Assembly: GCA_016342755.1 (NCBI GenBank) | Contig: JAEINS010000021.1 | Coordinates: 1-64,000 of the forward strand | Reading direction: 5' to 3' | DNA from: Melioribacteraceae bacterium | Lineage (GTDB): Bacteria; Bacteroidota; Ignavibacteria; Ignavibacteriales; Melioribacteraceae | DNA: 64,000 bases | In this document: positions 46,465 to 52,311 of the stretch, piece after piece | How positions within the stretch are numbered: the stretch's first letter is position 1 | Layout of the letters: each line of letters begins with the position of its first letter | Made by a program: the position numbers and the translations under genes | The notes under the pieces: generated by a model | The model's input: the letters and a program-made list of their open reading frames with translations, nothing else | Database searches by the model: none | Told to the model about the DNA's origin: nothing

Positions 46465-46518
46465 TTACTAAATATTGTTCTTAACTTTTATGCTTGAACG
46501 ATATGAGGGAGTAGTTTT

Positions 46519-46552
46519 AAAGATGACATCTTTTTAAAAAGATGTCATCTTT
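46519..46552. terminator. Perfect 34-nt palindrome, left island copy
   Basis: The sequence starts AAAGATGACATCTTTTT and is a perfect 17+17 palindrome. It lies 55 nt after the TfoX-like stop and is followed by TTTCCTTTAG. An almost identical hairpin occurs at 52272-52304. It could act as a bidirectional terminator; its duplication at both ends of the island is notable. Confidence 0.7.
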
Positions 46553-50705: not shown

Positions 50706-51135
50706 CTACCAAAACAATAAATATACGTAATGCTGGGCGATCTACTGAATTTGGACATTAAAGCATTTAATAAACGGGGTAGCATATTTTGATAGCTTCG
50801 AGCTTCCAAATCCCGCACTACGCATATTCAAACCACTGATAAGAAAATATGAGTATTTCTAAAAACACGCTAATAAACAGTTATAAAAACAAATTAAAAT
50901 CATGCTAAACTTGTTGCTATTTTGTTATTCGGCAACGCTTAAGGTAATCTAATATAAGGGGGTAGGTTGTTATATGGCATTTAACAACTAATAAAAAGAA
51001 GTCTCTATCCATTTTTATCAACAGCATTAAAAATCAGTTGTAACTTAAAATTGATTTCTCTATTTTATTACCAGGATTTGTATGGGGATACAAAACAAAT
51101 TATCAAAAAAAAATCATTTTAAAAGGGTGTTTATC
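50706..51135. other. Non-coding stretch rich in inverted repeats
   Basis: No gene is supportable. It contains the 109-nt imperfect cruciform at 50720-50828, a TTGC...GCAA hairpin near 50910-50940 and GTTGTTA/TAACAAC (50966-50972, 50982-50988). The last resembles a small attC-like end pair. It lies between the beta-lactamase-family gene and the NHLI repeat ORF. Confidence 0.5.
50720..50828. repeat. 109-nt imperfect inverted repeat (site C)
   Basis: The outer arms AATATACGTAATGCTGGG and CCCGCACTACGCATATT pair with a few mismatches. Inner arms TTTGGA (near 50750) and TCCAAA (near 50805) form a second stem. It follows the hydrolase stop by 15 nt, as site B follows the DUF3795 gene. AAC/GTT arm ends are not evident here. 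Confidence 0.45.
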
Positions 51136-51411
51136 ATGATTAAAAACAAAAGGACAATAAAAAACACTTCTAATTTTTATTTAATTACTATTAAAACAAA
51201 TAATTTCCCTCATAATCATTTAATTAAACTCTCCCCTGTCAATAGTTTTACCCATAATCATTTAATTAAGGCTCCACCGGAGCACAGTTTAGGGTTCAAT
51301 CATTTAATTATCTATTCACCGGAGTCTGGTTTTAGGTTTAATTATTTAATCATTGGCTGCCAGATCAACAGTTGGGGCTTTATTCATTTAATTACGGCAA
51401 AACTTATTTAA
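51136..51411 (+). CDS. Short ORF made of NHLI repeats
   Basis: A 91-codon frame, with AAGGGTG 8 nt before the ATG; an upstream ATG at 51082 is possible. After a basic start it consists of repeats of about 14 residues with the core NHLI and the wider pattern SPxSGFxFNHLI (for example FNHLIIYSPESGF). Beyond the TAA at 51409 the same frame continues through two more NHLI or NHLM units. I know no family. It could be a real repeat peptide, a decaying gene, or a DNA repeat that happens to be open. Low complexity makes coding status uncertain. Confidence 0.35.
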   Translation: MIKNKRTIKNTSNFYLITIKTNNFPHNHLIKLSPVNSFTHNHLIKAPPEHSLGFNHLIIYSPESGFRFNYLIIGCQINSWGFIHLITAKLI

Positions 51412-51475
51412 ACTATCCTTAATCATTTAATTACGAGCCTAAAAATTATGGAAGCTCATAATCATTTGATGATTA
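51175..51475 (+). repeat. Eight-unit AATCATTTAATTA repeat array, 42/39-nt spacing
   Basis: The core AATCATTTAATTA or a close variant recurs at about 51175, 51214, 51256, 51298, 51340, 51382, 51421 and 51460. Steps are 39, 42, 42, 42, 42, 39 and 39 nt, all multiples of three. Sequence between cores varies but keeps hints of similarity (CCGGAG in units 3 and 4). The last unit forms ATAATCAT-TTG-ATGATTAT, a hairpin 50 nt before the next gene. Step lengths near four helical turns could also phase a DNA-binding protein. Confidence 0.75.
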
Positions 51476-51526
51476 TATATAGATTCTTTATAAATAGTTA
51501 AAATTTTACCAATAACGGAGGTTTTA

Positions 51527-52246
51527 ATGAGTACCTTGAGTAAAATAATGACAAACAGTCGCGCGACTGAAATACTTTCGGCAGCAAAAAGAATGATCAG
51601 GGAATTTGAAGATGGAGACTGGAGTAGCGAAACAAAATTAACCAGCATATTTGATGAGCTAAAACCGGCTAATCTGAAACTGGAAAAATCGATTAATAAT
51701 GAAAAAGCTATAAGTGATTTAGAAGAGAAAGACGAGGTAAGAGACGAAAAAGTAAGAGCTATTTATTACACACTTACCGGTTATCTGCATAATCCGGATA
51801 CTTCAATTAAAGCTTCAGCCGAGAATGTTGATAAGGTATTTGAGCGTTATGGGCTAAAAATTATAGATGAGAGTTATTCTGCAGAAAGTGGGTTTATTAG
51901 TTCGTTGCTTACCGATCTTTTGGATGCCGCTTTAGAAACATCCATTTCTGCTCTGCCGGGTCTTAGCCAATTAATAACTGAATTACAGACGGCACAATCA
52001 GAGTTTGAAACTGCCAGACTTGCATACCAAAAAGATGCCGCAAAGGATAAGTCAGAAAAAAGTGCAACTGTATTAAAACAGGATGTTGCTGATATATTAA
52101 ATAAAAAGTTGGTGGTTTATTTGCGTGCAATGTCAACTATGGAAGAAGTGACATATGGTGAAATTACTAATACAATAGGTAAAATTATTGACGACAATAA
52201 TGTTGAGGTAAAAAAACGCCGTAAAAAAGTTACGCCGGAACAATAA
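51527..52246 (+). CDS. DUF6261-like helical protein
   Basis: A 239-residue, highly helical cytosolic protein rich in Glu, Lys, Ala and Ser, with a basic end (NNVEVKKRRKKVTPEQ). The overall pattern (long helices, TLTGYLHNPD, FETARLAYQKDAAKDKSEKSA, final IDDNNVEVKKRR) resembles the DUF6261 family of Bacteroidota, whose function is unknown. A strong CGGAGG ribosome site lies 6-7 nt before the ATG. The eight-unit repeat array lies just upstream and may control it. A palindrome follows 25 nt after the stop. Confidence 0.65.
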   Translation: MSTLSKIMTNSRATEILSAAKRMIREFEDGDWSSETKLTSIFDELKPANLKLEKSINNEKAISDLEEKDEVRDEKVRAIYYTLTGYLHNPDTSIKASAENVDKVFERYGLKIIDESYSAESGFISSLLTDLLDAALETSISALPGLSQLITELQTAQSEFETARLAYQKDAAKDKSEKSATVLKQDVADILNKKLVVYLRAMSTMEEVTYGEITNTIGKIIDDNNVEVKKRRKKVTPEQ

Positions 52247-52271: not shown

Positions 52272-52304
52272 AAAGATGACATCATTTTAAAAGATGTCAT
52301 CTTT
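52272..52304. terminator. 33-nt palindrome, right island copy
   Basis: AAAGATGACATC and GATGTCATCTTT (12-bp arms) flank ATTTTAAAA. Both arms and the following TTTCCT are the same as in the 46519-46552 palindrome. It lies between the convergent DUF6261-like and cyclase genes and likely terminates both. Confidence 0.75.
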
Positions 52305-52311
52305 CCTATAT

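Follow-up and report, generated by a model that had tools for sequence, protein, structure and literature searches.

The described systems that come closest to the locus examined here are all built from short repeats. In the F plasmid, sopC is a run of twelve repeats of 43 bp, and the 16-bp inverted repeat in every one of them is bound by a dimer of SopB, a protein of the ParB family (PMC9178275). REP/BIME elements with RAYT are dispersed intergenic palindromes, some of which lie beside the gene of their presumed cognate protein (PMC3733652). Type III toxin-antitoxin systems (ToxIN, CptIN, TenpIN) carry short tandem repeats upstream of one gene, those of the ToxIN examples measuring 34-36 nt (PMC5086642), and in TIGR-Tas a repeat array with locus-specific palindromes stands beside one gene (PMC12045711).

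The window (the whole 64-kb stretch of DNA analysed here) contains a tandem array upstream of a gene for a DUF6261 protein. Eight repeat cores of the AATCATTTAATTA type span 51175-51472, with starts at 51175, 51214, 51256, 51298, 51340, 51382, 51421 and 51460 and hence steps of 39, 42, 42, 42, 42, 39 and 39 nt, every one of them a multiple of three. It is the only array found with 38-44 nt steps in the window, and a shuffled window contains none. The eight repeats at 39/42-nt steps reported by the first-pass annotation are real. The features used below are the following.

51164..51490, no strand assigned: array of eight units at 39/42-nt steps
51175..51187, no strand assigned: unit core 1, degenerate
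51214..51226, no strand assigned: unit core 2, AATCATTTAATTA, with dyad TAAT-CATTTA-ATTA
51256..51268, no strand assigned: unit core 3
51298..51310, no strand assigned: unit core 4
51340..51352, no strand assigned: unit core 5, AATTATTTAATCA
51382..51394, no strand assigned: unit core 6, ATTCATTTAATTA
51421..51433, no strand assigned: unit core 7
51460..51472, no strand assigned: unit core 8, AATCATTTGATGA
51082..51411, + strand: chance open reading frame through units 1-6 (the 'NHLI' frame), without a family match and judged not to be a gene
51527..52246, + strand: DUF6261 (PF19775) gene, 239 aa, product predicted to be all-helical (mean pLDDT 95.5)

The strong ribosome site and the DUF6261-like gene that had been proposed next to the array are both there: GGAGG lies 8 nt 5' of the ATG at 51527, and the product matches PF19775 with a score of 72.1 bits, where the curated cut-off is 27 (E = 6e-20). 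DUF6261 is the sole Pfam family over its cut-off in this protein, NCBIfam gives no ParB, and the immediate neighbours of the gene encode a beta-lactamase-fold protein and a nucleotide cyclase. Relatives were found by an alignment search of genome contigs, where a single-protein search had found none; the close ones belong to Ignavibacteria bins and to marine Bacteroidota, among them Draconibacterium and Maribellus, which makes an Ignavibacteria-like genome the probable source of the window. In the 98-sequence alignment from which we built an AlphaFold2 model, a D..RD motif on a long helix (D69, R72, D73) is nearly invariant. Foldseek returned no convincing structural relative of the model (best E 0.04, PDB), and the VIA-align Z scores of 10.1 with a pectin methylesterase inhibitor and 9.3 with a LemA protein are at the level of helical bundles; since such scores fall within the range of unrelated helical bundles, we read no function from them. 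Nothing in the model could be recognised as a DNA-binding fold, and DUF6261 proteins are mostly acidic, with a median net charge of -6. Two further candidates were rejected: a defence system (the window protein has no PADLOC match, and those of its relatives are scattered and weak) and a phage origin (viral contigs hold no relatives, and PHROGs matches are weak only). The family is also found in incomplete form. The window's own genome has a truncated DUF6261 copy on C30 and an N-terminal fragment near the copy on C46, which suggests turnover of the family, and in G017:C134 a DUF6261 gene broken by stops and a run of N lies behind an array near-identical to that of L044. Four genomes (G1040, G939, G928 and G1031) have at least 14 DUF6261 matches each.

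How general is the association? We assembled 99 distinct DUF6261 loci across Bacteroidota, each with at least 300 nt of upstream sequence. When the 500 nt upstream were searched for chains, 54 loci had at least four copies, and no locus had four copies in the downstream, far-upstream or shuffled controls. A second detector found an upstream array with steps of 40-43 nt at 70/99 loci and a downstream one at 0/99, with other step classes yielding 0 or 1. The suspected tie between array and DUF6261 gene is thus borne out, with 29 of the 99 genes having no detectable array. Distances from array to ATG range from about 20 to over 300 nt, and the Bacteroidota promoter box TAnnTTTG takes no consistent position relative to the arrays. 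The GTGGAGC linker is in sense to the gene in three arrays and antisense in two, a count from too few informative arrays to establish an orientation. Two arrays have similar units only where their proteins are more than about 50% identical; this fits co-diversification of protein and site, and common descent alone could also yield such likeness.

The step length is more uniform than the sequence. Among 222 measured steps, 122 are 41 nt and 87 are 42 nt, with a mean of 41.40 nt, about four turns of B-DNA, while every array has its own sequence, wholly different between paralogues. These figures decide the fate of the reading in which the array codes for a repeated peptide under codon-level constraint, the first-pass annotation having suggested constraint at the level of the protein. 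At the window itself the idea has something to recommend it, since each step is a multiple of three and the open reading frame 51082-51411 covers six units, which read FYLI, NHLI, NHLI, NHLI, NYLI and IHLI in one frame, as had been described. The reported stop after unit 6 lies at 51409-51411, however, ahead of units 7 and 8 (NHLI and NHLM in the same frame), and the wider SPxSGFxFNHLI pattern holds only loosely, and in about three units. In relatives, 41-nt steps dominate, all steps are divisible by three in only 13/52 arrays, and neither frame nor peptide is conserved; the repeats are thus out of frame there, the outcome on which the annotation itself had staked the idea. The NHLI frame is thus a chance product of 42/39-nt steps at this one locus, the peptide reading was already refuted at the family level by the 41-nt steps, and we give it practically no chance.

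If not a reading frame, what is conserved? Units are usually palindromic, with arms of 5-8 nt around a spacer of 3 or 4 nt (for example ATCGTACtcaGTACGAT and TTGCCCAagcTGGGCAA), and a dyad is detected at p<=0.05 in 50/73 arrays against a null of column-permuted units. The window array passes the same comparison (dyad score 0.70 against 0.51 for column-permuted units, p = 0.005); its palindrome is nonetheless a weak one, and some of its steps are 39 nt. Step and symmetry are coupled: the dyad axis lies on a base pair where the step is 41 nt and falls between base pairs where it is 42 nt (21:3 against 2:23, odds ratio 80, p = 1e-8), a relation that two half-sites held together by a linker of fixed length would produce. 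Because step length and dyad symmetry are what is conserved, the element acts at the DNA level.

An inverted repeat could equally be a hairpin in a transcript, and here a type III toxin-antitoxin-like arrangement deserves consideration, in which the array would be transcribed and processed to an RNA antitoxin of the DUF6261 protein. Short tandem repeats directly 5' of one gene, with a paralogue-specific unit, are what one sees in ToxIN (PMC5086642). The stems, however, show no excess of G-U pairs (36 G-U against 58 A-C mispairs, and 27 against 33 in a second count), as RNA the window array shows no gain in folding over shuffled sequence (z = +0.58), and no terminator-like site was found on the + strand between array and gene, from 51472 to 51527. 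Pfam, PADLOC and NCBIfam yield no ToxN/CptN/TenpN-type sequence match to the window protein, and the fold search gave no clear relative. Arrays standing away from any DUF6261 gene, described below, are a further departure from type III systems, and we regard this reading as very improbable. Rfam returned chance matches only; together with the fold score and the missing G-U excess, this led us to reject an RNA antitoxin, a riboswitch and a CRISPR/TIGR-type array. From TIGR-Tas, with which the locus shares a locus-specific palindrome array adjoining a single gene, it differs in that the units are alike and have no varying spacers, that evidence of an RNA is missing, and that no Nop domain is recognised (a Pfam scan at E up to 1 found none of that family). 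With no G-U bias in the stems and no better RNA fold than shuffled sequence, we take the unit to be a site on double-stranded DNA.

Now we consider arrays that lie away from DUF6261 genes. In three Draconibacterium genomes the palindrome of the Draconibacterium array is clustered at 41-nt steps, each genome having two to four such sites, and outside them it occurs only as isolated one-mismatch matches. One site adjoins DUF6261 in two of the three genomes; others follow ispG or an RNase HII gene, or separate two convergent genes. The site after ispG and the convergent-gene site occupy corresponding places in all three. Palindrome and 24-nt linker are both retained in these arrays (L143-L151) and move together. 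Three other genomes (G838, G845 and G849) carry a second array of the same palindrome as their DUF6261-linked one, far from their DUF6261 genes. In the window's own genome a second copy of the window unit was sought and not found, and the unit of the second DUF6261 paralogue (on C46) recurs on C48 (four units) and C12 (three units) at 42-nt steps. The expectation that arrays always precede DUF6261 genes accordingly fails.

These sites bear on a regulatory explanation, that the array is a mere multi-site operator through which a separate regulator controls the DUF6261 gene. Its location upstream of the gene and its operator-like palindromes agree with that; but the same unit also forms arrays in gaps between convergent genes and 3' of unrelated genes, palindromes differ among paralogues of one genome, and the distance to the ATG varies as given above. 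We consider a pure operator improbable.

Dispersal on the scale of a genome is seen in G611, whose 1.83 Mb contig C1 has 23 arrays of at least four units at 40-43 nt, with 0-4 in other step classes; by exact lag, five are at 41 and 16 at 42, and all other lags from 36 to 47 are empty. Most of them occupy intergenic gaps and have ordinary genes as neighbours, in every orientation. This set (L153-L244) falls into at least ten sequence groups, most without a DUF6261 neighbour. Palindrome groups outnumber DUF6261 genes in this genome, only two of whose four DUF6261 genes have an array, and only 6/22 arrays pass the dyad test. In 400 kb of G613, a relative without DUF6261, we found no array even at three copies, where about eight would be expected at the G611 rate (39 in 1.83 Mb), a comparison that has the thin basis of one control genome.

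Such a picture could also arise from selfish, REP/BIME-like repeats that multiply and settle beside genes, with DUF6261 either spreading them by some unspecified activity or being a favoured neighbour, and with no role as an architectural DNA binder. In its favour are dispersed intergenic copies with no set orientation to genes, several groups of palindromes that have no DUF6261 gene, near-identical units in distant arrays, and the many paralogues and broken copies of DUF6261. Dispersed intergenic palindromes are indeed a feature that genomes with DUF6261 arrays share with REP/BIME, the window unit itself being single-copy. The likeness ends at the strict helical step and at the long direct arrays, in place of singletons and dimers. 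Nor is there a HUH/Y1 transposase family in the all-helical DUF6261 product or in either flanking gene product, and DUF6261 has nothing resembling a transposase domain. Array positions kept at corresponding places in three Draconibacterium genomes, a strong upstream bias at DUF6261, and a strict 41/42 step with matching dyad parity, which require physical constraint, also speak against selfish repeats. A selfish REP-like origin remains the strongest rival, though one we hold to be rather unlikely.

The explanation we prefer, to which we give about an even chance, is that the arrays are helically phased DNA-binding sites on which dispersed nucleoprotein clusters form, with DUF6261 as the probable cognate protein. 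Each array would be a row of putative double-stranded DNA sites, one per unit, and because these are spaced four helical turns apart, we propose that the bound proteins would all sit on one face of the DNA. Each DUF6261 gene would have its own array, further copies of that unit standing at a few other intergenic places. As the DUF6261 gene carries the array, its product is the obvious candidate binder, and most likely it recognises, alone or with a partner, the unit found in its own array. There it may assemble cooperatively into a nucleoprotein cluster, as SopB does on sopC, a cluster that could bridge or mark the array sites; on the array by its own gene, the protein would also control its own expression, a case of autoregulation. 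The weak points of phased binding sites with DUF6261 as their protein are the lack of a recognised DNA-binding fold, the acidic protein, the 29 array-less loci and the surplus of palindrome groups in G611.

Of the described systems, sopC offers the parallel for this arrangement: tandem units of almost equal length, an inverted repeat per unit, and a position beside the gene of the (presumed) binder. The tandem repeats with inverted repeats that characterise ParABS/sopC are present, with steps of 41/42 and dyads; a ParB-family binder and an adjacent ParA or other NTPase are both missing at the window locus. The arrays more generally differ from sopC in having no recognised ParA or ParB homologue, in stepping at 41/42 bp, in occurring several times per genome and in having a palindrome that differs per paralogue. 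They would belong among protein-binding palindromic repeat arrays, or may be a class of their own.

In the literature searched, in which few subscription journals were covered, we found no description of the arrays or of DUF6261 function, in keeping with the first-pass view that the element is of an undescribed kind. Lying both next to DUF6261 genes and at other places in the same genomes, the arrays may point to an undescribed DNA-binding system of Bacteroidota chromosomes. A bolder version seems to us doubtful: DUF6261 would be a new class of chromosomal DNA-binders, each paralogue with private palindromes in helically phased arrays at several loci, and the class as a whole would cluster distant sites of the chromosome, as a multi-channel system of chromosome organisation, or one resembling partition, that is independent of ParB and spread across Bacteroidota. 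The interest of the locus is that it offers a way into a protein family of undescribed function, multi-copy in many Bacteroidota, by tying it to a DNA element whose geometry can be measured. Should these proteins bind private arrays, they would form an orthogonal set of DNA binders, each acting at many sites, and possibly a non-ParABS chromosome-organising system. Should the arrays be selfish instead, a dispersed class of repeats that keeps strictly to a 41/42-bp step and has a candidate cognate protein would still be useful for annotation.

Finally, similar short inverted repeats of the TTTAAAAGATGACATCTT type occur in the window at 46515-46552 and at about 52272-52305, the latter directly 3' of the DUF6261 gene; these are possibly terminators or another dispersed palindrome.
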